Below, piece by piece: positions 5,379 through 48,582 of a DNA stretch of 64,000 nt. Position numbers and translations under genes: made by a program. Below the pieces are notes generated by a model that had not been told where the DNA came from, searched no databases, and was given only the letters and a program-made list of their open reading frames with translations. The stretch's first letter is position 1, and every line of letters starts with the position of its first letter. Source of the DNA: Nostoc sp. MG11 (GTDB lineage Bacteria; Cyanobacteriota; Cyanobacteriia; Cyanobacteriales; Nostocaceae); the NCBI RefSeq assembly GCF_014904695.1, contig NZ_JACXXN010000027.1:1-64000 (forward strand), written 5' to 3'.

Positions 5379-5732
5379 TTTTGAACAAATTAAACAAGGT
5401 ACTCTTTAACCTGTGTTAACTGTCCTCAAGCTGTCTTAATGATAACCTAATCTAGCTATATATGACTACTTGGATCGTGGAGTTAGCAGAATGAAATCGC
5501 TATCATTTCTAACCGTCAGGCTGTAACACAGGTGCTTGATGAACCAGGAAGTATCAAAGGTGGGCGATCGCGTCATCATGCCCTCGACTAATGCTTCTGT
5601 TATCGGGCTATTAAACGCCGATTCTTGAACCACTAGAAAAACAACTTCCTATGTGAATTTTAAAGTCACATTACTTGACTTTTTGCTTAAACAAAAAATA
5701 GGAATATTTACTCTGTAAACAACAACCATTGT
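5379..5732. other. Intergenic region between tRNA-Ala and ubiA
   Basis: 354 bp. A 29-codon frame at 5539-5628 on the plus strand (MNQEVSKVGDRVIMPST...) looks like the remnant start of a longer protein, but it is too short to assign. No terminator or other RNA gene is evident. Confidence 0.4.
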
Positions 5733-29221: not shown

Positions 29222-30009
29222 TCAGTTGTTACTATTTGTATAATCCGTACTTACAGTAACCTGCTGCCAAGCATCCAAATCCGTTTTGACCCCTGACAGT
29301 TTTTCCTGAATCAGGCTCATGGCATCGGTGCCTAATGCCAGTCGCATCGGTGGATGAGGACTTTCCACAGCTTGAATGATGGCTTGCGCCGCTGATCGTG
29401 GATTGCCAGGTTGCTTACCATCCATCTGTTTGAACCGCTGCAATGAAGCACCGCTGACCGGAGCATAGGCATCAATGGATTGTTTGGCTGCTGCCAGAGA
29501 GCGTCCGTTAAAATCTGTGCGAAATGCCCCAGGTTCAATTAAAGTAACTTTAACTCCAAAGGATTCAACCTCCTTAGCCAGGGCTTCAGACGTACCTTCC
29601 AGAGCAAATTTAGCGCCACAGTAGAGGCTGCTTCCACCAAATCCCACTAATCCTGCTGTGGATGACATATTCACAATATGACCGCTGCCTTGCTGACGCA
29701 TCACAGGCAAAACAGTTCGCATCAGACGGAGTGCCCCAAAGAAGTTGGTTTCAAAATATTGGTGAATATCAACATCACTGACTTCTTCTAGTGCGGCAAT
29801 TAGTCCATGGCCAGCATTGTTGACCAGCACATCAATTCGACCAAATGTGGCGATTACTGTATCAACCGCTGCTTGTATGTCTTGAGATAACGTTACATCC
29901 AGACGTACAGCCTTTGCGGTCTCTGGATAGTGCTCAATCAAAACGCGAAGTTGCTTTGGTTTGCGAGCAGTAGCAAGCAGGTAGTCGCCCTTCTTCAACA
30001 CTGCTTCTG
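29222..30009 (-). pseudogene. SDR oxidoreductase, main part, cut off from its start by the transposon
   Basis: Encodes the SDR from EAVLKKGDYLLATARKPKQL to the C-terminus, including VNNAGHG, the catalytic SSTAGLVGFGGSSLYCGAKF (Ser, Tyr, Lys) and VTLIEPGAFRTDF. The first strand and the glycine motif are missing here; they are at 44533-44616. The frame stays open for a few codons into the transposon end (MSSLYLPP), which is not native. Joining the two pieces with a single TTCTG copy gives FGRALAEAVLKKGD in frame, a normal SDR of about 290 residues. Confidence 0.93.
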
Positions 30010-30026
30010 GGGGTAAATATAGCGAA

Positions 30027-30166
30027 GACACTGTTGGCGAAACATTACTTAATATTTTAAACGTCGGTAAATCAGTGTTTTAGAAACTTTGGCTTTCACC
30101 GCGCTCTATCCAACCTACGGAATAATAAGGCTTTTGAGTATTAAGATATATTTCGCCAACAGCGTC
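30027..30166. repeat. 140-bp terminal module of the transposon, left copy
   Basis: Identical over 140 bp to 44376-44515 and in the same orientation on the plus strand, although the surrounding transposon ends are inverted. It is bounded by 16-bp inverted repeats GACACTGTTGGCGAAA and (inverse) GACGCTGTTGGCGAAA. Its interior holds no gene. Confidence 0.93.
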
Positions 30167-30237
30167 AGCGAAGCTGTCACCAGGGGCAAGATAGCCTGAA
30201 AGTCTTGTGAAGTCTGGGTTTGACAAAAAAGAGTTGA

Positions 30238-30657
30238 TCATTGGATTTTAGCGGTTTTGACGGGCGTTTTATAAGCACAGCCACAAATTGGACAAAATCG
30301 GTGTCTCAAAGACAACACCAACTCACCGCAATTCGCGCAGTTAACTCGAATCGGTGTACCGCAGAAATAACAAAACTTGGCTTTGACATGACCCCACATA
30401 GGGTCAACCGCCGTGCCAGGATTCCAACATTGAGGACAAAACTTAACCCCTCTAACCTGAGATACTTCCTCGCCCTTGATCACAGCAGAAAGATACTCTT
30501 GGGGTACACCAAGGGCGACGGCTATTCCTTGAAGCGTCCGGCGATTAATTTTAACCGTAAGTCCCCGCTCAATTTTCCCGACAGAGCGTCCATGTATACC
30601 AGCAGCATCCGCCAACTCAAACTGAGTTAAATTGAGTTTCTTCCTGACCCGTGACAC
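30238..30657 (-). CDS. XRE-type helix-turn-helix protein with zinc ribbons
   Basis: A 139-residue protein: an N-terminal XRE HTH (LNLTQFELADAAGIHGRSVG followed by KIERGL, residues ~8-35) and a C-terminal region with four CxxC knuckles (FCPQC, FCYFCGTP, CANCGE, FCPICGC), i.e. two treble-clef/ribbon-type zinc sites. It sits between the left end and the recombinase gene, divergent from it with a 125-bp gap. A regulatory role for transposition or cargo genes is inferred from position and fold; the target site is not known. It lies inside the transposon, so it moved with it. Confidence 0.78.
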   Translation of the reverse strand: MSRVRKKLNLTQFELADAAGIHGRSVGKIERGLTVKINRRTLQGIAVALGVPQEYLSAVIKGEEVSQVRGVKFCPQCWNPGTAVDPMWGHVKAKFCYFCGTPIRVNCANCGELVLSLRHRFCPICGCAYKTPVKTAKIQ

Positions 30658-30782
30658 GTAACTAGCAAGGGATTCATCGCTATTGGGAGTTTTAAAAGTA
30701 TCTATAAAAAGCTGTTAGCTAACTCCTTAAAAGATATATAATTTATCAATAAAAAACCAAGCGAGAGAATACAGAAACAACC

Positions 30783-31718
30783 GTGAAATCGGCTGTAACT
30801 TTAGCCACTGTCACGACCGAATTTCTAGAGCGTCCTGGTCTAGCACCAAGTACTAGAGAAACCTATGAACTGACCCTCAGACTTTTACTGCAAAAGTATG
30901 GAAGTTGGTCAATAGAAATTATCAGTAAGCAAACATTAGTTGAGTATCTAAATAATCTCAGTCATTTAAAATACACAACACACCACAAGCATCAAGCAAT
31001 ACTACAAAGTTTGCTTAACTTTTCAGTAGAACAAAGGTATATAAAATCCAACCCCATCCGGGGACTAAAACAACGTCTACCTGAAAGAGAGAAAGGCGAA
31101 CATAAAAGCGACAATACAATAAGATATCTAACACAATCACAACTAAATATACTATATTCTGCCGTAAAAGATGACTTACGTCTTAGTGCAATAGTTCATT
31201 TACTGCATCGCACAGGATGCAGGATAGGAGAGCTTTTAGCCCTAAATACAGATTCTGTAGATATCAATAACCAGAAATTTCAAGTATTAGGTAAAGGTAA
31301 CAAACAACGCTGGTGCTTTTATAGTGATGACGCAGCCGCAATGCTGGCTAAATACTTGAAATACTCACGGCATCAAAACACGAATGCCTTGTTTACGGCA
31401 CAACATCTAGTTACCCTAAAAGTAAGTAGAATCAGCTACCATACATTGCATGATTATTGGTGCGAGACAACCAACAAGTATCCGCAACTTCAAGGAGTTC
31501 GTATTCACGATTTACGACATACATTTGCTACAGAACGAGTTGGATTAATCAGTATTGAGGAATTATGCTCGTTAATGGGACATGAAAGCATTCAAACAAC
31601 TTTACGTTACGCTAAAGTCACCTCTCTACGAGACGCTCCGCGAACACAGAAATCAGAATCAGCCGCACGTCATGCCTTGAATATACTAATTAATTCCGAT
31701 CCATATGCTGACCTTTAG
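30783..31718 (+). CDS. tnpI: Tyrosine recombinase/integrase (TnpI-like)
   Basis: A 311-residue site-specific recombinase, GTG start at 30783. N-terminal SAM-like core-binding domain (APSTRETYELTLRLLLQKYG), then the catalytic domain with RTGCRIGELL (Arg I), HDLRHTFAT (His-x-x-Arg), LMGHESIQTT and nucleophile TLRYAKV. All catalytic residues are present. In Tn3-type elements with TnpI this enzyme resolves cointegrates at internal sites. The tail contains SLRDAPRTQ, encoded by a TCTCTACGAGA palindrome, an in-frame repeat insertion. The gene precedes tnpA on the same strand by 121 bp. It may also flip the 140-bp end modules; that is speculation. Confidence 0.88.
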   Translation: MKSAVTLATVTTEFLERPGLAPSTRETYELTLRLLLQKYGSWSIEIISKQTLVEYLNNLSHLKYTTHHKHQAILQSLLNFSVEQRYIKSNPIRGLKQRLPEREKGEHKSDNTIRYLTQSQLNILYSAVKDDLRLSAIVHLLHRTGCRIGELLALNTDSVDINNQKFQVLGKGNKQRWCFYSDDAAAMLAKYLKYSRHQNTNALFTAQHLVTLKVSRISYHTLHDYWCETTNKYPQLQGVRIHDLRHTFATERVGLISIEELCSLMGHESIQTTLRYAKVTSLRDAPRTQKSESAARHALNILINSDPYADL

Positions 31719-31839
31719 GGCAATTATATAGAATCAATCAGTTACACTATGTTCTTCACCAAGAAACAGCATTTTATCTCAGTTAAAGGTTTCTACCCCA
31801 AAGAAGGTAGAATACTGTTTGCTTGAAGAGTGAGACTTA

Positions 31840-34800
31840 ATGAAAAAAATCTGGCAACCAGACAGAAGAATTAGTAGAGTATTGAACACTACTCCCTCTT
31901 GAATTAGCCCTACTGAATCAGAAAAATGACGAAAATCGGTTAGGTTTTGCTATATTACTCAAGTTTTTTGAGATTTATGCCAGGTTTCCTGAGAATAATC
32001 AAGAAATATCCTTCATCGTTGTTGATTATGTTGCCAAACTTTTAGATATTTCTCCCCAAAAGTACTCTTACTACGATTGGCAAGGACGCTCCATAAAATA
32101 TCATCGCGCTCAAATCAGGGAATTCTTTGGATTTCAAGAAACCAAAGTTAGTGATGCTAAAGAGTTAACTAATTGGTTAGCCGAACAAGCACTAATTTAT
32201 GAGTTAAAGTTTGAACAGCTAAAACTTGCAGCCGTAGCAAGACTACGGAATTTAAAACTTGAACCACCGACAGATTCCAGATTAGAACGTATCATTCACT
32301 CTGCTATCAGGAATTTTGAATCTAAATTTTTTAGGGACATAACTTCCCAGTTATCTAATCAATCTAAAAATTGGATAAATGATTTTTTGAAAGAGAAAGC
32401 TTCAGAGCAGGAATTAGATGATACCACACAAGTAAATCATAATAAACAACGGAATAATCCGGGAGATATCCAATTATCTCAACAGTTAGATAACACGAAT
32501 AGCTCAAAAAATAACACTGACGTGACCATATTAACATGGGCTGAATTAAAAACAGACCCAGGGAGAATTGGTGTAGAAAGTTTTCAAAAAGAAGTTGCTA
32601 AGTTAGAGATTTTTGAGCAATTAGAATTACCAGCAGACTTATTTAAAAAAATCCCTACCAAAGTTCTCCAAGTCTATAAAAGTCGGGTAATTGTTGAACA
32701 TCCTCGTGACTTACGCCGTCACCCAGAACATATCCGTTACACACTATTTACAGCTTTTTGTTGGCTCAGAAGTCAAGAAGTTATAGATAATTTAGTAGAG
32801 TTACTCATCCAGATTGTGCATCGCATAGGTATCAATGCAGAAAAACGTGTAGATAAAGAACTTATTCAGGATTTTAAACGGGTTCATGGGAAGAATAATC
32901 TACTATACCAAATGGCAGAAGCTTCTTTGAAAACCCCTGATGGCACAATCAAAGATGTGATTTTTCCTGTGGTAAGTGAGGTAACTCTCAAGAATTTAGT
33001 GAAAGAGTATAAATCTACAGGGAATGCTTACCGTGAGAAAGTTTATACGATGATGCGCTCTTCTTATGGTGGATATTATCGGCGAATTTTACCGTTAATT
33101 TTAAACAAGCTAGAATTCCGTTCAAATAATGAAGTTCATCGTCCAGTTATTCAAGCGATATCAATACTTAAAAAGTATGCTGATAGTAAACAACGTTATT
33201 ATGATGCAGGAGAAGATATCCCCATTGATGGGGTCTTACGTAGTGATTGGCAAGAAATTATATTAGAGACGGGAGCAGACGACGAAATCAAAGTTAATCG
33301 CATTAATTATGAGTTGAGCGTGCTGCAAGCATTGAGAGAAAAGCTCAGATGCAAGGAAATCTGGGTTTTAGGAGCTAATCGTTACAGAAACCCTGAAGAA
33401 GATTTACCTGCTGATTTTGAGGCGCAAAGATTACAATATTTCCAAGCATTGAAACAACCATCAGATGTGGAAGTCTTTATTGCTAATTTGCAGCAAGCTT
33501 TGTCACAATCATTAACTTTATTAGATACAGGAATACCTAAGAACAAATTAGTCACACTGAAAACTACAGGTAAAAGTCGAATTTGTGTTTCTCCTTTGAA
33601 TCCTCAAAATGAACCAACTAATTTGGCAAGGTTGAAAACTGAAATTACTAGACGTTGGCGCATGACTAGCCTCTTAGATATTCTAAAAGAAACTGATTTA
33701 CGAGTTAAGTTTAGCCAACACTTTCAGAGTGTATCAACCAGAGAGGTTTTAGGCGACTATACTTTACAAAAACGCTTGTTACTTTGTTTATATGGTTTAG
33801 GAACGAATACTGGATTAAAGCGTTTAAGTGATGAGATTAAAGGCGATAATTATCAAGATTTACTCCATGTCAAGCGTCATTTTATTCAGAAAGAACAATT
33901 ACGCAATGCTATTGCCTGTGTTGCAAATGCAATTTTTACTGCCAGAATTTCTACTATTTGGGGAGAGGGTACAACCGCCTGCGCTTCTGACTCGAAAAAG
34001 TTTGGTGCTTGGGATCAAAATTTAATGACCCAATGGCACATCCGCTATGGTGGACGGGGTGTGATGATTTATTGGCACGTTGAGAAGAATTCTGTTTGTA
34101 TTTATTCGCAGTTAAAAACTTGTTCTTCTTCTGAGGTGGCAGCCATGATTGAAGGATTATTACGCCACTGTACCCAGATGAAAGTGGAGACAAATTATGT
34201 AGATAGTCACGGTCAAAATGAAGTGGCTTTTGCTTTCTGTCATTTACTGGGTTTTCAGTTAATGCCGCGTCTTAAACGTATCAATGTTCAGAAATTGTAC
34301 CGTCCTTCAACTGGAAATAATGATGCTTATCCAAATTTGCAACCAATTTTAACTCGCGCTATTAATTGGGATTTAATTCGCCAACAATACGACCAAATGG
34401 TGAAGTATGCTACTGCTTTGCGTTTGGGTATGGCGGAAACTGAAGCCATCTTAAAGCGTTTTACTAGGGGTAATTTATTACACCCTACTTATCAAGCCTT
34501 GGCGGAATTAGGCAAGGCTGTAAAAACTATATTTTTATGTAAATACCTGCATTCAGTTGAGCTGCGACAAGAGATAAATGCTGGACTAAATGTGGTGGAG
34601 AACTGGAATAGTGCTAACAGTTTTATTTTTTATGGCAAGGGTGGGGAGATTGCTACTAATCGTTTGTCCGACCAAGAATTAGCTGTGTTATCTCTGCATT
34701 TACTTCAGATATCTTTGGTATATATAAATACTTTAATGATTCAGGAGGTTTTGTCTCAACCACAATGGATGAAGTTGATGAAGTTGGAGGATTTGCGGGC

Positions 34801-34888
34801 GCTTTCGCCTTTAATTTGGGGTCACGTTAATCCCTATGGTACTTTTCGTTTGGATCTTAATGTCAGGTTGCCAATTGAAACGGGGTAA
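31840..34888 (+). pseudogene. tnpA: Tn3-family transposase TnpA with a damaged start
   Basis: The frame from about 31886 to 34888 encodes nearly all of TnpA: N-terminal DUF4158 ([20 protein letters not shown]), linker, and the DDE catalytic domain with [10 protein letters not shown] (Asp), [12 protein letters not shown] (Asp) and [12 protein letters not shown] (Glu). The expected start ATG at 31840 begins MKKIWQPD but a 4-bp duplication (CAGA CAGA near 31862) shifts the frame, and TGA at 31883-31885 replaces the Trp of EELVEYWTLLP. Only starts further in (e.g. ATG 32387, 833 codons) remain, which lack DUF4158. Total span is about 1015 codons, the family norm. The catalytic core looks intact, so activity from an internal start cannot be excluded. 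Confidence 0.88.
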
Positions 34889-35458
34889 ATGTGTCTAAAA
34901 ATACTAGTGTTCTTATGTTTGAAAATCTTATATAAGACTTATGCATTGACAGGAAATGGACTATGTGCATTGCCTTAAAGGGAAGTGAAGCGGGATGAAT
35001 TAGCATAGGTCAAAGCCTCATGCTGGGGAGCCTACTCCCAGTATACTTTGCCTAAAAGAAGACATTCTCGGCAAAGTTAAGCATCTAAAAATCTTTGAGT
35101 AAAACACTTGTCTAGTTATGTTTGAATGTCTAGATTGCAATAGGTGACAGCTTCCCTAGCATTACGCCAAGATACAAGCGAGAACTAACTAACTTAACAC
35201 CAATCTCATTCTTTAGTTAGAGGTTAGGTTTAGTTGAAAGCTTTAAGGTTCAGGTGTTGATTTGTAGTAGTTAATTTTTTTACTAGTCTAGAAGGCTGAT
35301 ACGAAGGGTAAATTTTTTCAAGAAACTTCTACATGCCTCTCGCTAATAAGCTCTTATCCTACACTGTTCTCCGCTCCTGGTATTAGGGTTTAGACAAACA
35401 AATTTGTCCAAACTGCGATAAACAAAGCACCATACAGCAAGCACGGGAGACAATAGAC
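34889..35458. other. Intergenic region inside the transposon, 570 bp
   Basis: Between tnpA and the first cargo gene. No open frame of note; no clear resolution site or repeat recognised. It should contain the cargo promoter, perhaps shortly before 35459 where the sequence is AT-rich. Confidence 0.4.
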
Positions 35459-35938
35459 ATGAGCCAACCAATTAAAGTTGAAAAGACGGTAACGATTAAC
35501 AAACCAGCAGAGGAACTTTACCGCTTTTGGCATAACTTTGGGAACTTGCCGCGCTTCATGAAGCATCTCAAAGACGTAAAAGTACACAATAATAAGCGAT
35601 CGCACTGGATTACCAGTGCGCCGTTAGGCGGAAGCGTTGAGTGGGATGCAGACATCATCGAAGATCGAGAAAACGAATTGATTGCATGGACTTCGGTTGC
35701 AGGCGCAGACGTGGATAACTCTGGTTCTGTCCACTTCCAGCCAGCGCCTGGCGATCGCGGGACTGAAGTAAAAGTTGTCACTGAATATAATCCGCCTGGT
35801 GGAGCAATTGGCGCTGGGATCGCCAAACTCTTCGGCGAAGAACCAGAACAGCAAATCGGAGATGATTTACGCCGCTTCAAAATGATGATGGAAGCAGGCG
35901 AGATTGCCACCACAGAGGGACAACCAAGAGGGAAATAG
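35459..35938 (+). CDS. SRPBCC/cyclase-dehydrase family protein
   Basis: A 159-residue protein with the START-like fold pattern: VEKTVTINKPAEELYRFWHN at the N-terminus, FMKHLKDVKV, HWITSAPLGGSVEWDADI, then VTEYNPPGGAIGAGIAKLFG and a helical C-terminus with DLRRFKMMMEAGEIATTEGQ. Proteins of this group bind hydrophobic small molecules; none of their ligands is evident. In many bacteria this type sits directly before zinc-dependent alcohol dehydrogenase genes, as it does here. First gene of the cargo block, 80 bp ahead of the first dehydrogenase, same strand. Confidence 0.85.
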   Translation: MSQPIKVEKTVTINKPAEELYRFWHNFGNLPRFMKHLKDVKVHNNKRSHWITSAPLGGSVEWDADIIEDRENELIAWTSVAGADVDNSGSVHFQPAPGDRGTEVKVVTEYNPPGGAIGAGIAKLFGEEPEQQIGDDLRRFKMMMEAGEIATTEGQPRGK

Positions 35939-36018
35939 TCACTCGTCCTTCGTTTATTGCTAATGACTAATGACTAAGGACTGATGTATTAATGACCAAT
36001 GACTAAGGACTAATGACT

Positions 36019-37188
36019 ATGAAAGCAGTTTGCTGGCACGGCACTCATGATGTGCGGGTAGAAACAGTTCCAGATCCAAAAATCCTCAACCCGCGCGATG
36101 CCATCCTTAAAGTTACATCAACAACCATCTGCGGTTCTGACTTGCACCTCTACGATGGCTATATCCCGACGATGCAACCAGGTGATATTCTTGGTCACGA
36201 GTTCATGGGGGAAGTTGTTGAAATTGGCAGTGAAGTCAAGAAACTAAAAAAGGGCGATCGCGTGATTGTTTCTTCTATGATCGGCTGCGGTCATTGTTTC
36301 TTCTGCAATCAGCAGATGTGGTCGCTGTGCGATAACTCTAACCCCAACGCTTGGATGCAGGAGAAGCTGTTTGGCTTTGGTACGTCGGGGATCTTCGGCT
36401 ACTCACACTTGTTTGGTGGCTATGCTGGTGGCGACGCCGAATACGTGCGTGTGCCGTTCGCTGATCATGGCGCTGTCAAAGTTCCCCAAGACATTCCTGA
36501 CGAAAAACTGCTGCCGATCACTGATGCCTTTCCCACCGGCTACATGGGGGCAGATTTATGTGACATTCAGCCCGGAGATATTGTCGCTGTCTGGGGTTGT
36601 GGTCCAGTCGGACAATTCGCCATGCGTAGTGCTTATATGCTGGGTGCAGAGCGCGTCATTGGCATCGACCGAGTTCCCGAACGCCTACAACTGGCTAGGG
36701 ATTTCGCCAAAGCAGAAACGATCAACTATGAGGAAGTCGATGCGGGTGAAGCCCTCAAAGAAATGACTGGTGGTCGCGGTCCCGATGCTTGTATTGATGC
36801 AGTGGGAATGGAAGCCCATGGTATGGGTCTGGAAGGATTTTACGATGAAACGAAGCAGAAGCTAAAGTTAGAAACTGATCGCCCTATTGTGCTGCGGCAA
36901 ATGATGCTTGCTTGTCGCAAAGGCGGCACCTTGTCAATTATGGGCGTTTACGCTGGCTTTGTAGACAAGATACCAATGGGCGCTGCTATGAACAAAGGCT
37001 TGACGCTCAAAACCGGACAAATGTTCGGTCAGAAGTACATGCCTATATTGCTGGATAGCGTTATAAAGGGCGAAGTCGATCCCTCTGCTGTGTTCACACA
37101 TCGCTTGCCTTTAACAGAAGCTCCGCAGGGCTTTGAGCTTTTCAAGCACAAAAAAGACAACTGCGTCAAGGTCTTACTTAAACCCTGA
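36019..37188 (+). CDS. Zinc-dependent alcohol dehydrogenase (formaldehyde dehydrogenase-like), copy A
   Basis: A 389-residue MDR-superfamily enzyme starting MKAVCWHG (the preceding two codons of the long frame are not needed). Catalytic zinc ligands CGSDLH and GHEFMGEV, structural zinc cysteines in [15 protein letters not shown], and the NAD-binding [11 protein letters not shown] are all present. The length and the insertion near GMEAHGMG place it with the long glutathione-independent aldehyde/alcohol dehydrogenase subgroup. It is followed by a close paralogue and then FdhA, suggesting a cargo block for aldehyde handling. The substrate is inferred only at class level. Confidence 0.88.
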
Positions 37189-37350
37189 TCAGCGTGAGCG
37201 GATTTTGGTACGCGTCAAGATTCTAAGGCGCTAAGAAAGCTTGTGATCTCTTACCCTTTGCGTCTTTGCACGCGCAGCCGCCTCAAGTTGGCGAACCCGC
37301 CCACGACGTTGCCTTCGTCTTTGCGTGAGATGAAAAAGGAGAATAACTCA

Positions 37351-38517
37351 ATGAAAGCTGTTTGCTGGCACGGTGCCAACGAAGTGCGGGTCGAAACAGT
37401 ACCCGATCCAAAAATTATTAATCCGCGCGATGCTATTGTCAAAATTACGTCAACGGCAATTTGCGGTTCTGATTTACATCTTTATGATGGCTACATCCCG
37501 ACGATGGAAAAAGGCGACATCCTTGGTCATGAGTTTATGGGGGAGGTTGTTGAACTTGGTAGCGCGGTGAAGAATGTGCAGGTAGGCGATCGCGTTGTCG
37601 TTCCCTTTACCATTTCCTGCGGTAACTGTTTCTTCTGTCAAAAGGATTTGTGGTCGCTGTGCGACAACTCCAACCCGAACGCTTGGATACCAGAAAAACT
37701 CATGGGTCATTCCCCATCTGGTCTTTTCGGCTACTCCCATATGATGGGTGGTTATGCTGGAGGTCAAGCTGAATACGCCCGCGTTCCCTTCGCTGATGTT
37801 GGTTTGTTAAAGATTCCCGATGGACTAGCAGACGAACAAGTCCTATTTCTCACAGATATCTTCCCCACTGGATACATGGCAGCGGAAAATTGCGATATTA
37901 AGCCTGGTAGTATTGTCGCCATCTGGGGCTGTGGACCAGTCGGACAATTTGCGATTAGAAGCGCCTATATGCTTGGTGCCGAGCGCGTCATTGCTATTGA
38001 TCGAGTTCCCGAACGTCTACAAATGGCGCAAGAAGGTAAGGCAGAAGTCCTCAACTATGAGGAAGTAGATGTTGGTGAAGCCCTCAAAGAAATGACGGGT
38101 GGGCGTGGTCCCGATGCTTGCATGGATGCTGTGGGAATGGAAGCTCACGGCACGGGTCCCGATTCATTTTACGACCAGGTCAAGCAAGCAGTGCGGATGG
38201 AAACAGATAGACCCACTGCCCTAAGGCAAGTAATGGTTGCCTGTCGCAAAGGCGGTACTGTATCAATTCCTGGCGTTTATGGCGGCTTTGTTGACAAAAT
38301 CCCGATGGGTGCTGTCATGAACAAAGCCTTAACATTGAAAACAGGACAGACACACGTTCATCGGTACTTGCGCCCATTACTTGAGCGCGTCCAAAATGGC
38401 GAGATCGATCCATCTTTCGTGATCACCCACCGGATGCCGCTAGAGCAAGCACCGCACGGCTACGAAATTTTCAAGCACAAGAAAGACAACTGTATCAAGG
38501 TCGTGCTCAAACCATAG
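37351..38517 (+). CDS. Zinc-dependent alcohol dehydrogenase (formaldehyde dehydrogenase-like), copy B
   Basis: A 388-residue paralogue of the preceding gene, sharing long identical stretches ([49 protein letters not shown]). Start at ATG 37351 is chosen because AAGGAG lies just before it; the longer frame to 37243 runs through repeat-derived DNA. Zinc ligands CGSDLH, GHEF, and [15 protein letters not shown] and the NAD loop GCGPVGQFA are intact. Gene duplication inside the cargo is likely. Nearest differences lie in the metal-distal C-terminal part. Confidence 0.88.
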
Positions 38518-38536
38518 GTTAAGAGAGGGACAAGTC

Positions 38537-39739
38537 ATGGCAAGTAATCGTGGAGTGGTCTATATGGGACCTTGGAAACTCGAGGTTCAAAATCTTGATT
38601 TCCCAAAACTAGTTGACCCTCGTGGTAACAAGTGCGATCATGGTGTCATTCTCAAAATCGTCACCACGAACATCTGTGGCAGCGACCAGCACATCTATCA
38701 TGGTCGTTTTGCGGCTCCCCAAGGGATGGTGTTGGGTCACGAGATGACCGGCGAGGTGATCGAGGCAGGCCGGGATGTCCAGTTCATCAAGCAGGGTGAT
38801 CTCTGTTCAGTCCCGTTCAACGTCTCCTGCGGGCGCTGCCGCAACTGCAAGGAGCGGCACACCGACGTCTGCATGAACGTCAACCCTGAGGTTGATTGCG
38901 GGGCATACGGCTTCAACCTTGGCGGCTGGCAGGGCGGGCAGACTGAGTACCTCATGGTCCCCTACGCCGACTGGAACCTCTTGAAGTTCCCTGACAAGGA
39001 TCAGGCGATGGCGAAGATCAGGGATCTCACGCTGCTCTCGGATATCCTGCCCACCGGCTTTCACGGCTGCGTGTCGGCAGGATGCAAGTCGGGGTCCACG
39101 ATCTACATCGCTGGCGCGGGACCGGTGGGTCGCTGCGCCGCTGCCGCCGCACGTCTTTTGGGTGCCTCCTGCATCATCGTCGGCGACAGAAATCAGGCCC
39201 GGCTCGATCTAGTGAAGAGCGCTGGCTACGAGGTTGTGAACACGACGCTAGAGACCCCAGTTGCCGATCAGATCGAGGCGATTCTGGGAGATCGGGAGGT
39301 CGATTGCGGGGTCGATGCCGTCGGTCTGGAGGCGCATGGTCACGGTGAGGAAGACGGAGAAGAGCATTCGGAAATAGTGCTCAACACCCTGTTTGAAGTG
39401 GTCCGTGCGGGCGGCGCGATGGGCATCCCCGGTATCTATACCAACGCTGACCCTGGGGCCCCAAAGACTGATATGGCAAAAAAAGGTCAGCTCCCCCTTG
39501 CCTTCAGCAAGGCGTGGATCAAGTCACCGCAGCTGACGGGGGGTCAGGCCCCGATTATGAAATACAACCGGGATCTGATGATGGCGATCCTGTGGGACCG
39601 GATGCCTTACTTGGGCGAGGTCATAAACACCGAGGTTATCTCGCTCGACCAAGCGCCCGATGCTTACCGAATATTCAGTGATGGCTCACCCAAGAAGTTC
39701 GTCATCGACCCCCACGGCAGCGTGAAGCAAGCCGCATAG
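38537..39739 (+). CDS. fdhA: Formaldehyde dehydrogenase, glutathione-independent (FdhA type)
   Basis: A 400-residue zinc enzyme of the Pseudomonas FdhA type that oxidises formaldehyde or other aldehydes with NAD. Motifs: NICGSDQHIYHGRF, GHEMTGEVIEAG, structural zinc CGRCRNCKERHTDVC, NAD loop GAGPVGRCAAAAA, and the subgroup insertion VGLEAHGHGEEDGEEHSE. The coding DNA is clearly GC-rich compared with flanking cyanobacterial genes (41 G/C in 39121-39180), so it was probably acquired from a GC-rich donor. It starts 20 bp after copy B and is probably in the same operon. Confidence 0.92.
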   Translation: MASNRGVVYMGPWKLEVQNLDFPKLVDPRGNKCDHGVILKIVTTNICGSDQHIYHGRFAAPQGMVLGHEMTGEVIEAGRDVQFIKQGDLCSVPFNVSCGRCRNCKERHTDVCMNVNPEVDCGAYGFNLGGWQGGQTEYLMVPYADWNLLKFPDKDQAMAKIRDLTLLSDILPTGFHGCVSAGCKSGSTIYIAGAGPVGRCAAAAARLLGASCIIVGDRNQARLDLVKSAGYEVVNTTLETPVADQIEAILGDREVDCGVDAVGLEAHGHGEEDGEEHSEIVLNTLFEVVRAGGAMGIPGIYTNADPGAPKTDMAKKGQLPLAFSKAWIKSPQLTGGQAPIMKYNRDLMMAILWDRMPYLGEVINTEVISLDQAPDAYRIFSDGSPKKFVIDPHGSVKQAA

Positions 39740-39833
39740 ATCACTCAATTTGCCTCCACACGATTGGGGGACAGGACGCATAAATATTGCAGAGAAAGAT
39801 GTAAGCAGATTTGTATTGACAGGAGATAAGAAC

Positions 39834-40403
39834 ATGGCTAATGAGAATCTCAAAGGACTGAAAGTCGCGATCCTGATCACGGACGGTTTCGAGCAGGTCG
39901 AAATGACCGAGCCACGGAAGGCTCTCGATCAGGCTGGTGCTGAAACCCGCATCGTTTCGCCCAAGGGTGATCGGGTCCGCGCCTGGAACTTCACAGACTG
40001 GGGGGACGAGTTCCCGGTTGATGTAGCCCTTGACCAAGCCCAGCCGCAGGACTTTGACGCGCTGCTGCTGCCAGGCGGCACCATGAATCCGGACATGCTA
40101 CGAGTGCAGGCGAAAGCGATCGAGTTCGCAAAAGCCTTCTTCAACGCCGGCAAACCGGTGGCATCAATCTGCCACGGTCCCTGGACTATCATCGAGACCG
40201 GCGCGGCGCGCGGGCGGCGGATCGCCTCGTGGCCGTCGCTCAAAACCGATCTCCAAAATGCCGGTGCCCAGTGGATGGATCAGGAGGTCGTGGTCGACAG
40301 CAATCTCGTAACGAGCCGCAAGCCCGACGACATCCCAGCGTTCAACCGGGAAATGATCGAGCTGTTCAGCCGTGTGCGTGGGCAGGCGCAACCCGTGGCG
40401 TGA
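39834..40403 (+). CDS. DJ-1/PfpI family protein (type 1 glutamine amidotransferase-like)
   Basis: A 189-residue protein, start at ATG 39834 with AGGAGAT upstream; the longer frame from 39750 has no function-related residues. It has the PfpI pattern VAILITDGFEQVEMTEPRKA, LLLPGG and the nucleophile elbow SICHGPWTIIE. Relatives include proteases, glyoxalases and deglycases that deal with methylglyoxal or glycated products; which one is not readable. GC-rich like its neighbours. Position between aldehyde dehydrogenase and aldo/keto reductase fits carbonyl stress defence. Confidence 0.9.
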   Translation: MANENLKGLKVAILITDGFEQVEMTEPRKALDQAGAETRIVSPKGDRVRAWNFTDWGDEFPVDVALDQAQPQDFDALLLPGGTMNPDMLRVQAKAIEFAKAFFNAGKPVASICHGPWTIIETGAARGRRIASWPSLKTDLQNAGAQWMDQEVVVDSNLVTSRKPDDIPAFNREMIELFSRVRGQAQPVA

Positions 40404-40492
40404 GGTTGCCCTAAGACGTCAGAAGTGCAGGACTAAGGATGGACGAGGATCGTCAACTTGCAAAAGCAACGAATTTAGCCAGGAGGACAAGC

Positions 40493-41332
40493 ATGGAACA
40501 GCGTCGATTCGGTTCCACCCAGCGCGAGGTCGCAGTGATCGGTCAAGGAACTTGGTACATCGACAACGGTGACCGCGCCTCTGCGATCGCCGCTTTGCGC
40601 CAAGGACTCGATCTCGGTATGACCCACATCGACACGGCGGAGATGTACGGCAGCGCCGAGGAGGTGGTCGCAGAGGCGATCGCTGGACGACGCGATCGGG
40701 TTTTCCTGGTTTCCAAGGTTCTTCCTGGAAATGCTTCTCGGAGAGGGACGATCATAGCCTGCGAGAAATCGCTCGCTCGACTTCATACCGATCGGCTGGA
40801 CTCTTATCTGTTGCACTGGCGCGGTCAACACCCACTGGAGGAGACGATCGCTGCCTTCGAGCAGCTTCAGCACGAGGGGAAGATTCTCTGCTGGGGCGTG
40901 AGCAACTTCGATGTGCCTGACCTTGAAGCAGTCCAGAAGATCGCTGGCGAGGGTTCTCTCGTCTGCAATCAAGTCCTTTACCATTTGAGAGAGAGAGCGA
41001 TCGAACACGCTGTGATCCCCTGGTGTGAGAAGCATGGGGTCGCCGTAGTCGCATACAGCCCGTTCGGTCATGGGGATTTTCCCAGCTCGCGCACAACCGC
41101 AGGTCGCGTACTACAGGAAATCGCCGCTGCTCACAATGCCACCCCTCGTCAAGTCGCGCTCCGATTTCTGGTGCGGCACCCCTCGCTCTTCACAATCCCC
41201 AAGGCATCCAACCCCGAACACGCCGCCGAAAACGCGGGAGCTGGGGAACTCAATCTCACCCAAACCGAGATCAATCGAATCGACGCAACCTTCCCGACCG
41301 GAACTCGTCCCCGCGTGCTTCCCATGCTGTAA
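40493..41332 (+). CDS. Aldo/keto reductase
   Basis: A 279-residue NADPH-dependent reductase, start ATG 40493 with AGGAGG before it. The catalytic tetrad is visible: Asp and Tyr in IDTAEMYGSAEE, Lys in VFLVSKVLP, His in YLLHWRG. C-terminal cofactor site TIPKASNPEHAAENAGA. It reduces aldehydes and ketones to alcohols. High GC and codon use like the two genes before it indicate a shared donor. Ends 12 bp before the next gene, likely same transcript. Confidence 0.92.
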   Translation: MEQRRFGSTQREVAVIGQGTWYIDNGDRASAIAALRQGLDLGMTHIDTAEMYGSAEEVVAEAIAGRRDRVFLVSKVLPGNASRRGTIIACEKSLARLHTDRLDSYLLHWRGQHPLEETIAAFEQLQHEGKILCWGVSNFDVPDLEAVQKIAGEGSLVCNQVLYHLRERAIEHAVIPWCEKHGVAVVAYSPFGHGDFPSSRTTAGRVLQEIAAAHNATPRQVALRFLVRHPSLFTIPKASNPEHAAENAGAGELNLTQTEINRIDATFPTGTRPRVLPML

Positions 41333-41343
41333 GCCACGTCATT

Positions 41344-41991
41344 ATGCGAAACTCACGAGCGTTAGCCGAGACAGACACCCAACGCCTTGAAGCGTTTAGC
41401 GACGGCATCTTTGCAATTGCCATCACGTTGCTGATCCTGGAAATTAAAGTGCCACAAGTAAACCCTAGTGAGGGAACGACAAGTCTTGCTTCAGGGCTGT
41501 TCGCGCTGTGGCCATCTTATTTCGCTTACATTTTCAGCTTTATCATGATTGGGGTTTTCTGGGCAAATCATCACTACGTCTTCAACCTCTACGAACGTAG
41601 CAATCGCATATTCAAGCTGATCAATCTCTTTTTTCTGATGTTTATTTCGTTTCTGCCGTTTCCAACAGCGGTTCTAGCGAGATACATTACGGATACACAA
41701 CAACGACAAACTGCAATTATTTTATATGCGTTGACGTTGTTCGTAACGGTATTAATGTGGCTGTTCATGTGGCTCTATGCCAGTCACAACCATCAATTGC
41801 TGAACAAAAATCTCGACGATCAATTCATTGCTCACCTCACGCGCCAGTACACAGGCACTAGCGTATTGTACTTCTTAGCGCTTGTACTATCCTTATGGAA
41901 CAGTATTGCAGGATTGACGTTGTGTGTGGGATTAACGTTGCTATACTTGCTACCGCAGAAAAAGCCGGTGTATCGTGGCAACCGCATCTGA
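41344..41991 (+). CDS. TMEM175/DUF1211 family potassium channel-like membrane protein
   Basis: A 215-residue protein with six predicted transmembrane helices. The first helix holds the family signature FSDGIFAIAITLLIL; then helices near 45-70, 75-95, 110-130, 145-165 and 185-205. Bacterial TMEM175 members form K+ selective channels. It closes the cargo group and is less GC-rich than the genes before it. The start ATG 41344 is 12 bp from the preceding stop. Confidence 0.87.
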   Translation: MRNSRALAETDTQRLEAFSDGIFAIAITLLILEIKVPQVNPSEGTTSLASGLFALWPSYFAYIFSFIMIGVFWANHHYVFNLYERSNRIFKLINLFFLMFISFLPFPTAVLARYITDTQQRQTAIILYALTLFVTVLMWLFMWLYASHNHQLLNKNLDDQFIAHLTRQYTGTSVLYFLALVLSLWNSIAGLTLCVGLTLLYLLPQKKPVYRGNRI

Positions 41992-42139
41992 ACGGGCGAA
42001 GAAAACGCCTCATCTCTGAGCAAGGCTCTAAAAAAGCAAATAGATGTAATGGTAGGTGGTTGATCGGGTTAGTCGCAGCACTGATTCTGTAGCAACATCA
42101 CAAGAACAATTGCAGTTATCACTTTATTAGGAGAATTTT

Positions 42140-42472
42140 ATGCGAATTCAAGACAATTTTATGCCTGTTAATATTGGTATTAGCGAGTCAGACAGAAAAC
42201 AAATTACTGAAGGGCTTTCTCGTCTACTTGCCGACACCTATTCCCTATATCTTAAAACTCATAACTTTCACTGGAATGTCACAGGGCCGATGTTCCAAAC
42301 CCTGCATTTGATGTTCGAGACGCAGTACACAGAGCTAGCTACAGCTGTTGATCTGATTGCTGAGAGGATCAGGGCGCTCGGCTATCCAGCGCCAGGGTTT
42401 CATAATCAGAGCGGATTTTGTCATACAAAACCGGAGTTGTACCAATCTTCTCCCAAAGGTTTTCATAGTTGA
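42140..42472 (+). pseudogene. dps: Dps ferritin-like protein, truncated by fusion
   Basis: The first ~85 residues are Dps: [20 protein letters not shown] then [20 protein letters not shown] and [17 protein letters not shown], with the ferroxidase residues of the first two helices. From about 42398 the frame runs on the antisense side of another gene fragment ([15 protein letters not shown]..) and ends. The last two helices are missing, so the 12-mer could not form. A deletion joined it to the fragment on its right. Confidence 0.85.
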
Positions 42473-42815
42473 AATTCTTGAAAGGTCTGTGCCTGACGAG
42501 GGCATCATAACTTGCCCAGAGGTAAACATCTGTCCATTGGGATGATAGTGGCACTTCAAAAGCAATTGGCATCATCAGTGCAACAACTTCGCTACTAGAG
42601 GCGAGTTTACCTACTTCTCCCTTGTCTATCTCTTGTAAAGCTGCATCTAATCTATCAACTGTGATCGCGCGCCAAACCCAAGTGGGAATTGACTGTTGCC
42701 AGCCGTTCTGCTGAGTGACAATTGGCCCAGCGATGTATTGAACAATTTCACGACTTGCTCCTGCTAGATCGAGTAGGCTGGCTGTTACAGCTTTGTTAAT
42801 CCCTTGGCTGGTTAG
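42398..42815 (-). pseudogene. Internal fragment of an unrecognised gene
   Basis: A single minus-strand frame is open throughout: LTSQGINKAVTASLLDLAGA, VTQQNGWQQSIPTWVWRAIT, then AFEVPLSSQWTDVYLWASYD and [14 protein letters not shown]. It has no stop in the frame, but no start either: its upstream end is cut by the IS element at 42815 (a few more residues continue beyond 44302) and its downstream end by the Dps fusion. I cannot assign a family. It seems to be a relic of DNA present before the last deletion. Confidence 0.6.
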
Positions 42816-44301
42816 CCCTGTTGTGTCACTTTAGGCAGAGGAAAAATAGAATTCAGCGTGAGTTAGGAAGATAAAAATTGGAGAAGTGAGCCTATAAACG
42901 ATGGCTTGAAGCTTAGAAAAACCCGAAAACAGTTGCGGAATAGGAAAAACTGTTAACCAGGGATATATGAGGTTAAATAAAATGAAAGGTTGAATAACTA
43001 AACGCAGATTGTTGAGAATATTCTTCCAACCTTTACCATGATCCCACCAGGGGTGAGAAGCAAATGTTGATTGAGGATCTGGGGGAGAAGGACGCAGAGA
43101 TTCTGAATGAAGACTAACCATGAGGTAGGCACTACATACAATCTCCCACCCTTCGAGTTCGCCAGTCGCTACAACGGGGGGAACCCCCGCAACGCGCTGG
43201 CTCACCATCGCTCAATATCTTCATAGCGAGTAAAACGATAATCAGCCCAACCTAACTCATTTTTACTTTGTTTTAAGGCATATTCTACCCATGTTCTTAA
43301 ACCATAAAAATTCCCAACCTCGCGCTTGTTAATATCTGGATACTTACTCATAACATACCAGGTAGAGTTTCCGGGTAATGTTTCAGTGTCTGTGGTAATG
43401 CCAATATCTATGTTCTCCACTTTTCCCGTGGATTATTTCTCTAATAAATCGATTTTCACTACTTAAGTCAGAGAATACTCGTTTAAACTTCTGCCACTTT
43501 AAGTATTGAGTATACTGACCTTTAAGCAAGTCTACAGAATGGTTTGAGCGAATTGCTACTAGATAGTTTAAATCTAGTTCATCTAATACAGATATGAAAT
43601 TCGTACCACTTTCACCATATAAACTATCAGCTAGTACCAAGTTGAATTTAAATCCCATCAACTGTAGCTTTCTTATCAGTATTGCTCCGATTTGAGGCTT
43701 GGTAAAATATTTATCTCCCGGCTTTAATTTTTCTCGTGGTTTGTACACTTCAAACAGTAGAGGGAATGTCATCCCGCAGAATACACCATAGTCTGTGACT
43801 GCCACTACACCATTCTCTACTTTGCCTAAATTGCCTATATATTGCCGCTTCACATAATCTGTAGTAGAACCTTTCTTTTTATCTCCCCGAAGTTCTGATC
43901 GGAGGAAGCCTCCGCTCAGACTTCTCTCTGTTTCATCAATAATTAAAATGATTGGTCTTCCTTTTAGTACCTCTAAAATTAGTTCCAATCGCAAAGCTCT
44001 TAACTGTTCTACTTCCCAAGATGATGTAGTTAAGAAATGGTGCAGTCCTTGATAGTTATCTAGCCCAACAATTTTCGCTATTTCAGGTAGACTTTTCCGT
44101 TTTAATTCAGAAATACATCCTAATATGCAGATACTTAAACGCTTCAAAATTTCTGACATCTGAAAACAGCTTTTTATACCAAAGACAATATTCATCCACA
44201 ATTTTAACGGTTTCTTTGGGTGGACGAGGCTCTACCATTCTCTGTGTCTTCGTTCTGGGCTTTGTACATCCTTATACTACCGCGATAGTGACACAACAGG
44301 G
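42816..44301. mobile_element. IS701-family insertion sequence
   Basis: 15-bp inverted ends CCCTGTTGTGTCACT (42816-42830, inverse at 44287-44301) and a 4-bp direct repeat TTAG on both sides (42812-42815 and 44302-44305), matching the YTAR-type duplication known for IS701. It lies inside the Tn3-type transposon and splits the unrecognised fragment. Confidence 0.87.
42831..44201 (-). pseudogene. IS701-family transposase, frameshifted
   Basis: The first frame (44201-43383) carries most of the DDE transposase: YQGLHHFLTTSSWEVEQLRA, ILIIDETERS, DYVKRQYIGNLGKVENGVVA, LVLADSLYGESG. It shifts near 43415 and continues as VENIDIGITTDTETLPGNST, YGLRTWVEYALKQSKNELGW (Glu region) to YEDIERW. There a repeat of about 55 bp containing GGGGGTTCCCCCCG interrupts, and the last part (WEIVCSAYLMVS to HAEFYF) follows. 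So at least one frameshift and one repeat insertion have inactivated it. Confidence 0.87.
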
Positions 44302-44375
44302 TTAGTAACTGAAATATCTAAAAGTCATTCACCGCAGTACTTTCAGGTTATCTTGCCCCTGGTGACAGCTTTGCT
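44302..44375. other. Subterminal region of the transposon right end
   Basis: Contains the 40-bp inverted copy of the left subterminal repeat (44339-44378) directly next to the 140-bp module. The part before it belongs to the unrecognised fragment. Confidence 0.7.
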
Positions 44376-44515
44376 GACACTGTTGGCGAAACATTACTTA
44401 ATATTTTAAACGTCGGTAAATCAGTGTTTTAGAAACTTTGGCTTTCACCGCGCTCTATCCAACCTACGGAATAATAAGGCTTTTGAGTATTAAGATATAT
44501 TTCGCCAACAGCGTC
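44376..44515. repeat. 140-bp terminal module of the transposon, right copy
   Basis: All 140 bases equal the left copy (30027-30166) and lie in the same plus-strand orientation, so relative to the transposon end it is reversed. Ends are the 16-bp inverted repeats of the GACACTGTTGGCGAAA type. Confidence 0.93.
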
Positions 44516-44532
44516 TTTGCTATATCTACGCC

Positions 44533-44616
44533 TTCTGCTAGGGCCCGTCCGAACCCTGTTGAACATCCTGTAATCAACCAAACTTTAGGAGCGACACGAT
44601 TTTTGTCTGAGTTCAT
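44533..44616 (-). pseudogene. SDR oxidoreductase, start piece
   Basis: From ATG 44616 it reads MNSDKNRVAPKVWLITGCST and GFGRALAE, i.e. the first beta strand and the TGxxxGxG cofactor motif of an SDR. It then enters the transposon (GVDIAKTLLAKYIL). The rest of the gene is at 29222-30009. The LysR gene upstream is divergent, with 119 bp between starts. Confidence 0.92.
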
Positions 44617-46276: not shown

Positions 46277-47380
46277 TCAAGGTTGGTAGTACTCTGACAA
46301 AACTTGATGGAAGTGAGAAATTCCATATTCAATGTCTGCAAGCTGAAGTACACCATAAGCTTTGGAATGAACACTTGCTTGTAGTGAGCGTACCACCCCA
46401 AAGTCTTCATTTAGCACCCGCTCAAATTCAGGTCGAAAGTCATCCGGCTTGTAAGAAAATGCTTCCATCTGTGCTTTTGTTTGATAAATAAAAACCTCAA
46501 ACTTAGTTCTTGTAGGAGATAAAGGAGTCAGTCGAAAAACTGAAACTTTGTCTCTTGCAGTATTGACCATCATATTGGGAAAGATAAAGCCCTGGTACGA
46601 TTGTCCTTTTGGTTCTCCTGAAAAAGCGGGGTGATCTTTGACAAATTCATCATCTGTGAAGGGAACAAATATCTGATAGTGTCGCCCGGTTGGAGTGTAA
46701 ATAATATTCTTAGGATCAAAACACTTTAAACTTTGAGCATGAACAACAGACAAGTGATAGCACTCTAGATAATTCTCAATTGGGAATTTCCAGTTTGCTG
46801 GCTCCTCATAAAACCAGTGGTCAACCTCCTGAAGTTCCTCCCAAGGGTGCTGATATTGCTCTAGGTAGGCTGAGAATCCGGCCAAATAACTAACTAACGA
46901 TTCCCCCTCTGCTTCTGGGTGAACAAAGATAAAGCCGCCCCATGTCTGAACTCGTCCCGTGGCTAGATGGACAGCCGACTTATCTAAATTGGGAAAACAC
47001 TCAGCGCGAGGTAAACCTTTGAGATTGCCTTGCCAATCGAAGTTCCAACCATGATACGGACAACGCACTCGTTGACAATGACCCTGCCCTTGTAACATCC
47101 GCGCTCCCCGATGTGGACAAACATTGTGCATGGCTCGCAATTCGCCATTTTTAGTCCGAATCACGAACATGGGTTGATCGCCAACTTGGCAAGTTAGATA
47201 ATTTCCAGGAGCAGGTAGATCGGATTCACGTCCTACAAACTGCCAGGTATTACGCCAGATAGTTTGCTGCTCATCAGCAAAAATTTGCTCATTAAAGTAG
47301 TAATCACCAGGTAGGCCAAATTTCGGTTTATTACTATTAGCAGCTTCATCTACAAATGAAGGATGGGTCAAGATATTCAT
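46277..47380 (-). CDS. Rieske-type ring-hydroxylating oxygenase, alpha subunit-like
   Basis: A 367-residue non-haem iron oxygenase. Rieske 2Fe-2S centre: CPHRGARM and CPYHGWNFDW with the usual Cys-His spacing. The mononuclear iron ligands are in NYLECYHLSVVH and the Asp of NEDFGVVRSLQ. Such enzymes hydroxylate aromatic or other substrates and need a reductase, which is not encoded nearby. It starts 28 bp after a diiron-type gene on the same strand, so both probably form a two-gene operon. Substrate is unknown; a biosynthetic rather than degradative role is possible. Confidence 0.88.
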   Translation of the reverse strand: MNILTHPSFVDEAANSNKPKFGLPGDYYFNEQIFADEQQTIWRNTWQFVGRESDLPAPGNYLTCQVGDQPMFVIRTKNGELRAMHNVCPHRGARMLQGQGHCQRVRCPYHGWNFDWQGNLKGLPRAECFPNLDKSAVHLATGRVQTWGGFIFVHPEAEGESLVSYLAGFSAYLEQYQHPWEELQEVDHWFYEEPANWKFPIENYLECYHLSVVHAQSLKCFDPKNIIYTPTGRHYQIFVPFTDDEFVKDHPAFSGEPKGQSYQGFIFPNMMVNTARDKVSVFRLTPLSPTRTKFEVFIYQTKAQMEAFSYKPDDFRPEFERVLNEDFGVVRSLQASVHSKAYGVLQLADIEYGISHFHQVLSEYYQP

Positions 47381-47408
47381 AGTTTTAGCTTCTGTTTCAC
47401 CAGTAATG

Positions 47409-48131: not shown

Positions 48132-48582
48132 CGAAATTTGAGTCCTTTATACAGATATGTCGAATGCCAATCTAGCTTTGAAATTTGCCAGCAATTAATA
48201 TATGCTTGACATTTTTTATGGCCAGAATAGCTTTCGTAACTTGATAAATCTTGAGTAAAGGTACTGAAAATAACTAAATAATTAAAATGATTAAAAGTAG
48301 TATTTTCACTATAAAAAGTTATAAAATAAGCACTATTTAAGCGATTTGTTTTTTTATTAATTACAAGTGTTGATTAACTTAGATGAAAAATGACGCAACA
48401 CAGATACAGATACCGTTTTGCACGCTCAAATTCTATAGCAATCAGTTGATGGTTTGCAAACAGAGATATTACTTATTCCCTATTACCTTCTTAATTAAAC
48501 ACAAACTTATTTTGATAGTCTGAAGTTGCTGATGGGTAATCTAGGTTAAGCAAAGATCTACTCAAACCAAGATTTACCACTT
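48132..48582. other. Intergenic region, 451 bp
   Basis: AT-rich divergent region between the diiron/Rieske operon and the sensor kinase gene. It must hold two promoters; no palindromic operator is obvious. No gene seen. Confidence 0.4.

Follow-up and report, generated by a model that had tools for sequence, protein, structure and literature searches.

The 64,000-nucleotide stretch of Nostoc sp. MG11 DNA analysed here (contig NZ_JACXXN010000027.1, positions 1 to 64,000; the window) carries a Tn3-family transposon of about 14 kb at 30010 to 44532, seated in a gene for a short-chain dehydrogenase/reductase (SDR). A miniature inverted-repeat transposable element (MITE) of 140 bp, the same in both places, breaks each end of this transposon after base 17. 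The locus is best read as a composite Tn3 transposon with a captured block of plasmid stress genes that entered the SDR gene and then received MITEs in both ends, a history that we consider probable. What makes the locus interesting, rather than its cargo, is a parasite with an apparent preference for Tn3 ends that occupies both ends of a single transposon. Comparison of cyanobacterial sequences suggests that the insertion sequence (IS) clade with which the MITE shares its ends, a clade with a DDE transposase, appears to home on Tn3 ends.

The left terminal inverted repeat, TIR1, begins with an outer segment (A-box, GGGGTAAATATAGCGAA) at 30010 to 30026 on the plus strand. This segment closes with AGCGAA, the first of the two 6-bp target duplicates that flank the MITE. 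The first MITE copy (GACACTGTTGGCGAAA...TTTCGCCAACAGCGTC) follows on the plus strand at 30027 to 30166, and a second AGCGAA (30167 to 30172) opens the TIR1 inner segment (B-box), which takes up 30167 to 30203 on the plus strand. The right end, TIR3, lies on the minus strand and features an inner segment with the first TTTGCT (44370 to 44375) at 44339 to 44375, the second MITE copy at 44376 to 44515 in the same chromosomal orientation as the first (plus strand), and an outer segment (A-box) at 44516 to 44532 that on the plus strand starts with the second TTTGCT. The two MITE copies agree at 140 of 140 positions, and they are the only full copies found in the 8.41-Mb draft host genome. The element is short, has no transposase gene, is flanked by 6-bp target duplications, and has imperfect inverted arms of 35 nt that are 80% alike, which are the features of a MITE. 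AGCGAA and TTTGCT, the complement of AGCAAA, are variants native to the left and the right Tn3 end, respectively. When the MITE and one copy of the 6-bp duplication are set aside, TIR1 and TIR3 are identical at 44 of their first 48 bases, so that the transposon has the long GGGG-like inverted repeats of the Tn3 family, interrupted in their present state.

The preliminary description of this DNA took GGGG...AGCGAAGACACTGTTGGCGAAA (the hybrid end, GGGG...AGCGAAGACACTGTTGGCG) as a genuine 38-bp Tn3 end without a later insertion. The outer ends, read inwards from 30010 and 44532, are indeed identical at 29 of 33 bases (mismatches only at positions 3, 7, 15 and 21) with a 5-bp duplication outside them, and units with the hybrid end on both sides are present in G336 (duplication CATTC) and in Calothrix membranacea FACHB-236 (GTCTA). 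However, 17 of those 33 bases belong to the Tn3 end and the other 16 to the MITE, the 6-bp duplications around the 140-bp segment match each end's own sequence, and contiguous Tn3 ends of 47–48 bp were read in L087 and L161. L087 is a deletion derivative that holds the uninterrupted counterpart of TIR1 beside a tnpA fragment 94% identical to that of the window, which already contradicts a 38-bp end. Additionally, the same inner end is found without a recognised Tn3 segment in 33 of 33 GATACTG ends and 19 of 20 GATGCTG ends of the scan given below. A genuine 38-bp end is thus most unlikely, and the search with 38-bp ends that had been proposed would have picked up a different mobile element. 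Two other identities were tried for the repeated segment and rejected. The direct repeat at both ends had suggested a cointegrate of a circular donor, but what is repeated is a distinct element of 140 bp, which lies within longer Tn3 ends and has 6-bp duplications of its own. A Tn3-derived inverted-repeat miniature element (TIME) is contradicted by those same GATACTG and GATGCTG ends and by the association of the related ends with an IS1182 transposase.

Uninterrupted ends of this type also occur on both sides of a 416-bp TIME-like element in Tolypothrix FACHB-123, where TTCTT is duplicated. Eight uninterrupted Tn3-type elements were read at both ends; three have a 5-bp duplication and five have none, and the picture of ends plus duplication is for that reason not always complete. 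The published structure of the Tn4430 transposase places the contacts at bases 6–15 and 21–36 of its 38-bp end (PMC9579193). An insertion after base 17 splits these two groups of contacts, and the Tn3 transposon of the window is therefore probably immobile, its ends locked by the MITEs.

Genome contigs were scanned with a 26-position pattern of the MITE end, and 80 of 107 stretches, all with cyanobacterial names, gave 81 ends. The flank of each end was scored against 9 outer segments (at least 12 of 17 bases) and 10 inner segments (at least 14 of 22 bases) of uninterrupted Tn3 ends. The ends fall into three types, GACACTG, which is the type of the window (28 ends), GATGCTG (20) and GATACTG (33). 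GACACTG ends adjoin a Tn3 end at base 17 in 24 of 28 cases, 20 on the outer side and 4 on the inner side, while this adjacency is seen in 1 of 20 GATGCTG and 0 of 33 GATACTG ends (together 1 of 53). The background, taken from positions 60–2000 bp upstream of the same ends, reaches such scores at 5 of 3711 positions for outer segments and at 5 of 3711 for inner segments. GACACTG ends meet the ends of more than one Tn3 element and do so in both orientations, and the Tn3 segments vary between cases; the association is therefore not one inherited event. In L131, one of these ends adjoins an inner segment from a Tn3 with 94–97% identity to parts of the window's Tn3. A class sample of 388 genomes, which partly covers the same genomes as the scan, has a 20-base pattern of the end at 10 places in 8 genomes; 8 of the 10 places, judged by eye, adjoin Tn3-like segments (G375 and G294 weakly), and the exceptions are an end in G216 without a Tn3 segment and G224, which has one at the element's other end only. 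Since the hybrid end itself served to find the plasmid matches, these are a biased sample. Six plasmid regions were inspected, and five of them have an outer Tn3-like segment beside an IS-type end; the sixth, H44, which came from another search, does not.

Two further arrangements were noted among these ends. GATGCTG- and GATACTG-type ends in L095, L099, L115, L124, L129, L162 and L170 adjoin a recurrent sequence, GGGGCGTGAGTATCAACG or variants of it, which is perhaps another transposon end that serves as the target of a sister clade. On a Fischerella NIES-4106 plasmid (L249, 4001–4056 and 4056–8311) a Tn3 unit is immediately preceded by 38 bp from a MITE-type end, which itself adjoins a different Tn3 outer segment, giving a nested Tn3/MITE/Tn3 arrangement.

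The ends of the MITE are near-identical to those of IS1182-type ISs. Its first 26 bases (GACACTGTTGGCGAAACATTACTTAA) are the first 26 of an IS in Richelia SL_2_1 (L133), and its ends are 94–100% identical over 26–35 bases to ends in G216, G334 and G224. The Richelia IS is complete at contig positions 5536–8041, provided that its two stretches are adjacent, as their lengths imply, and its transposase belongs to the IS1182 family (NF033551, 322.6 bits against a cutoff of 270). A partial transposase in L131 scores 180.7 bits, under that cutoff. G336 holds a second complete IS of 2462 bp (46731–49192), the transposase of which is 78% identical to that of Richelia. In a midpoint-rooted tree of the 11 transposase fragments that have at least 180 residues and a typed end, all 7 GACACTG transposases group in one clade (support 100/99), next to those with GATACTG and GATGCTG ends. 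The MITE is therefore most likely a derivative of the GACACTG clade of IS1182 and would have been moved in trans. The IS6 family, considered since the end resembles IS26 ends, is excluded by the transposase result.

The IS1182 elements of this clade feature a second open reading frame (ORF) of about 170 amino acids (MKKMKRDIQGKF...; L133 7440–8000, L234, L164), which could be a regulator or a target-choice factor; a related 130-residue stretch from L150 had no Pfam match. Palindromes like CCATGTATTACATGG/CCGTGTAATACACGG are also present in these elements, each of which has several. At another place in the host genome, G000 C218 (L003 1–402), there is an IS1182-type remnant with an end and, judged by eye, the apparent start of a transposase frame.

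Several observations weigh against insertion by a site-preferring IS1182 clade. Many Tn3 ends in the relatives retrieved are uninterrupted, so that the target sites are not saturated. Four of the 28 GACACTG ends fail the Tn3-end test and 2 of the 24 that pass do so at the lowest score. The boundary between the types is not strict either, and GATACTG-like ends outside the scan adjoin Tn3 segments in three places, namely Nostoc HK-01 plasmid3, a plasmid of Tolypothrix PCC 7910, and G191. The 238-contig draft of the host genome contains nine IS1182-type matches of 43–68% identity, several of them fragmentary, and one stray end, and a complete autonomous IS of this clade was not found in it. Both flanks of the IS or MITE can be read as Tn3 at eight loci, and at five of these the outer segment is present on both sides, which a single insertion cannot yield. 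At a ninth locus, G224:C81, an outer segment is found on one side and no Tn3 similarity on the other. Many other cases are one-sided, often because the contig or the available stretch stops inside the IS.

The three loci with an outer segment on one side and an inner segment on the other, which are the two ends of the window and G095, all have a 6-bp duplication. The five with two outer segments are L110 (Calothrix HK-06), Richelia, G336, Calothrix membranacea FACHB-236, where the case spans two contigs and the halves of the element do not overlap, and the Tolypothrix PCC 7910 plasmid, where the second segment is degenerate and the end is of GATACTG type. A 5-bp duplication of Tn3 style surrounds two of the five, those in G336 and FACHB-236. 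The arrangement would arise if two direct copies, placed one in each end of a single Tn3, recombined with each other, and the window represents exactly the precursor for this. A hybrid-ended unit moved by Tn3 transposase may be another origin. Alternatively, an IS1182-type insertion or replacement could have occurred within the inverted repeat of a short element derived from Tn3, which would also yield an IS or a MITE between two outer segments. IS1272, which belongs to the IS1182 family, takes the place of the inverted repeats that it targets (PMC5678879), but the window has the direct copies in both ends that the two-copy account predicts, and hairpin targeting by sister elements is weakly supported, which leaves this route unlikely. 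General hairpin targeting by those elements was set aside as weak on the following counts: a 6–8-bp duplication was present in 8 of 20 candidate both-ended cases, 4 of these 8 had a stem score of 7–8 or p < 0.05, and some of the partner ends are doubtful. A wider proposal holds that the IS1182 clade and its MITEs evolved homing to base 17 across cyanobacterial Tn3s, and that insertion in both ends followed by recombination of the direct copies yields an IS or MITE capped by two outer segments, perhaps still mobile through Tn3 transposase. This is put forward tentatively, at somewhat less than even chances.

The insertion of the unit into the SDR gene is real. TTCTG is present at 30005 to 30009 and again at 44533 to 44537, as the left and right copies of the 5-bp Tn3 target duplication, and the SDR reading frame is continuous once the flanks are joined with one TTCTG. 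The 3' part of the gene lies on the minus strand at 29222 to 30009, and its N-terminal segment has been severed by the insertion. The search for an empty site proposed in the preliminary description bore this out, and the site is empty in 5 of the 5 SDR loci examined in five related genomes. At all five (87–93% protein identity) the SDR gene runs directly into the sequence towards a LysR gene, and the target is present once, as TTCTG in four loci and as TTCCG in one. Three further places at 86–89% identity were listed outside this five-locus count. The closest empty locus, in G390 of the same genus, matches the junction at 92% on the left side and 96% on the right. The earlier recognition of a unit with a Tn3-family transposase, Tn3 ends and a 5-bp duplication in an SDR gene was therefore upheld. 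A gain of the cargo after insertion, through the IS701-family IS or by homologous recombination, would be compatible with the IS701 copy and with the broken junction between Dps and an unrelated gene fragment near 42400 in the right part. TTCTG encloses the whole unit, however, the other part of the SDR gene lies directly outside TIR3, and the empty site is clean in five relatives, and late gain is accordingly improbable.

The transposition core consists of an XRE regulator with a helix-turn-helix and a double zinc ribbon (HTH_3, DZR) at 30238 to 30657 on the minus strand, a TnpI-type tyrosine recombinase (Phage_integrase) at 30783 to 31718 on the plus strand, and tnpA at 31844 to 34888 on the plus strand, the start of which is approximate. 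TnpA is a Tn3-type DDE transposase (NF033527, 931 bits against a cutoff of 500; PF01526), and TTCTG is a duplication of the 5-bp length that characterises the family. The tnpI frame is open and tnpA is broken by an in-frame TGA at 31883–31885, where the three relatives compared have Trp or Phe; the first common start codon past it is at 32387. The gene families named in the preliminary description were confirmed by Pfam and NCBIfam, with corrections for the tnpA stop, a partial Dps match and the IS701-family IS.

A diverged Tn3-type end, TIR2, lies on the minus strand at 35130 to 35168, about 280 bp past tnpA. It could be a chance match or an unrelated relic, in which case the unit would be an ordinary non-composite Tn3 with passenger genes. 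Two observations speak for this and against the composite history: TIR2 resembles TIR1 at no more than 28 of 39 positions, and Nostoc HK-01 shares TIR2 together with the cargo, in a locus without tnpA. The best unrelated 39-mer in the 64-kb window reaches only 23 of 39, however, and an outer segment similar to TIR2 (GGCTTAATGCTAGGGAA) adjoins an IS end in L166. Moreover, two cargo-free relatives end shortly after tnpA. The XRE-TnpI-TnpA unit of the Fischerella NIES-4106 plasmid is 4256 bp long, has its right end 88 bp past tnpA and lacks a 5-bp duplication, and the tnpI/tnpA unit of G191 is 5154 bp long, has its right end about 500 bp past tnpA and is flanked by AACTA. The non-composite alternative is doubtful on these grounds. 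Because HK-01 has TIR2 and cargo without tnpA, TIR2 may be part of the cargo block instead of being native to the tnpA of the window. In a TIME-COMP composite, cargo that lies between two Tn3-type ends moves and leaves an outer duplication. The cargo here sits between TIR2 and TIR3, and it is the single feature TTCTG that points to the use of TIR1 with TIR3.

All cargo genes are on the plus strand. They encode an SRPBCC protein (35459 to 35938), two paralogous zinc alcohol dehydrogenases (36013 to 37188 and 37243 to 38517), an FdhA that resembles glutathione-independent formaldehyde dehydrogenase (38537 to 39739; 599 bits, under the NCBIfam cutoff of 637), a DJ-1/PfpI family protein (39750 to 40403), an aldo/keto reductase (40439 to 41332), a TMEM175 family channel (41344 to 41991) and a truncated Dps/ferritin-like protein (42140 to 42472), the match of which ends at residue 83 of a 110-residue frame. 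The two adjacent dehydrogenase genes (36013–38517) are 72–83% alike over long DNA stretches, and the pair recurs in other cyanobacteria. The Dps gene is truncated at the junction near 42400, where it is fused to a minus-strand fragment of an unrelated gene (42400–42811) with no match among the loci compared. Beyond it, and still inside the element, an IS701-family IS with a partial transposase frame and a TTAG target duplication lies at 42816 to 44301 on the minus strand. The GC content is 38% in the Tn3 core, 52–54% in the main cargo genes and 42–43% in the host flanks. A putative role of the cargo in aldehyde and oxidative stress is a reasonable reading of the family names.

The cargo does lie between Tn3 ends, as had been claimed, but it is not one tidy passenger set. 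The lack of cargo in the two relatives of the transposition module that were read at both ends, the position of TIR2 between tnpA and the cargo, and the presence of cargo genes on plasmids and chromosomes that lack this Tn3 argue against a single package. Nostoc HK-01 plasmid1 shares 34933–41335 in pieces, TIR2 included, at 85–96% identity (72% for the DJ-1 gene); its locus is without FdhA, and no tnpA was found within 8 kb upstream. The aldo/keto reductase gene is 97% identical in DNA to that in G224 (C54), a genome of another family, and 95% identical to that of HK-01 plasmid1. A similar cargo cluster with a different gene order is found in G207. A conjugative plasmid of Nostoc C057 (L250) has the order FdhA-BON-TMEM175-AKR, where AKR is the aldo/keto reductase, beside chaperone genes. 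Genes for Hsp20, thioredoxin, DnaK, two YfdX proteins, a J-domain protein and ClpB surround it, a set that we take to be reminiscent of the transmissible stress-tolerance loci of enterobacteria. Parts of the 14-kb unit are present, at megablast sensitivity, in 39 of 72,556 plasmid records, none of which covers 80% of it.

The history proposed for the locus would begin with a Tn3-family unit (XRE, TnpI, TnpA) that came to lie next to a cluster of stress and oxidoreductase genes, which was probably plasmid-borne. Transposition through TIR1 and a further Tn3-type end past these genes, TIR3, would have brought about 14 kb into the SDR gene with duplication of TTCTG. The 140-bp MITE would have inserted later, once per end, mobilised in trans by a transposase of the IS1182 family with a preference for base 17 of Tn3 ends. 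Each insertion would have duplicated 6 bp and divided the end into its outer portion and the inner portion that serves for recognition, which probably locked the element. A stop codon would also have been gained in tnpA.

ISs with a preference for Tn3-family ends were reportedly described by Partridge and Hall in 2003. IS4321/IS5075 insert in Tn21-type ends (PMC8269217, PMC11187229). Elements of the IS1111/IS110 type depend on a guide RNA and have a DEDD transposase (PMC11187229). The preference for Tn3 ends is common to that group and to the MITE/IS clade of the window. In contrast to IS4321/IS5075, which have a DEDD recombinase and subterminal inverted repeats and are not known to duplicate their target, the present clade has a DDE enzyme of the IS1182 family, a 6-bp target duplication and cyanobacterial hosts. 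The type of transposase and the duplication place the MITE and its partner IS outside the IS4321/IS5075 group. Also unlike that group, a short non-autonomous MITE targets in the same way here, and both ends of one transposon have been struck. This clade is likened to the IS1182 family, of which IS1272 is an example, by a transposase over the NCBIfam cutoff and by inverted-repeat ends. For IS1272, structure-directed targets with replacement of inverted repeats are described (PMC5678879). Where IS1272 replaces its targets and leaves no duplication, the present elements take a position in Tn3 ends and leave a 6-bp duplication wherever a single insertion can be read, and the two complete cyanobacterial IS1182 elements are about 2.5 kb long with a second ORF.

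Tn4430 is an example of the Tn3-family transposons with TnpI, and the unit of the window shares with this type a TnpA with a tyrosine recombinase, GGGG ends and a 5-bp duplication. It differs in its 47–48-bp ends, which are interrupted, its XRE/zinc-ribbon regulator and its stress-gene block. TIMEs are short elements with Tn3 ends that mobilise intervening DNA through Tn3 transposase (PMC4133298). The TIME-like element of Tolypothrix has the end type of the window; however, the unit of the window carries a tnpA of its own, which is now broken, and a MITE that does not derive from Tn3.

Literature searches, limited to top-ranked matches mostly without subscription journals, gave no paper on IS1182 elements that target Tn3 ends, and the only Tn3-end-seeking ISs that they turned up were IS4321/IS5075, which are of IS1111 type and belong to the RNA-guided group. 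If the preference described here is true, a DDE clade that seeks Tn3 ends would have solved this targeting problem independently. It would also be a natural brake on the spread of Tn3 and a possible route by which Tn3 transposons are turned into solo IS/Tn3 hybrids. For the reading of such elements the locus is a caution, since what is taken for a "Tn3 end" in a sequence can consist of Tn3 in one part and of a parasite in the other. For the host, it shows how a Tn3 composite may bring plasmid stress genes into a chromosome.

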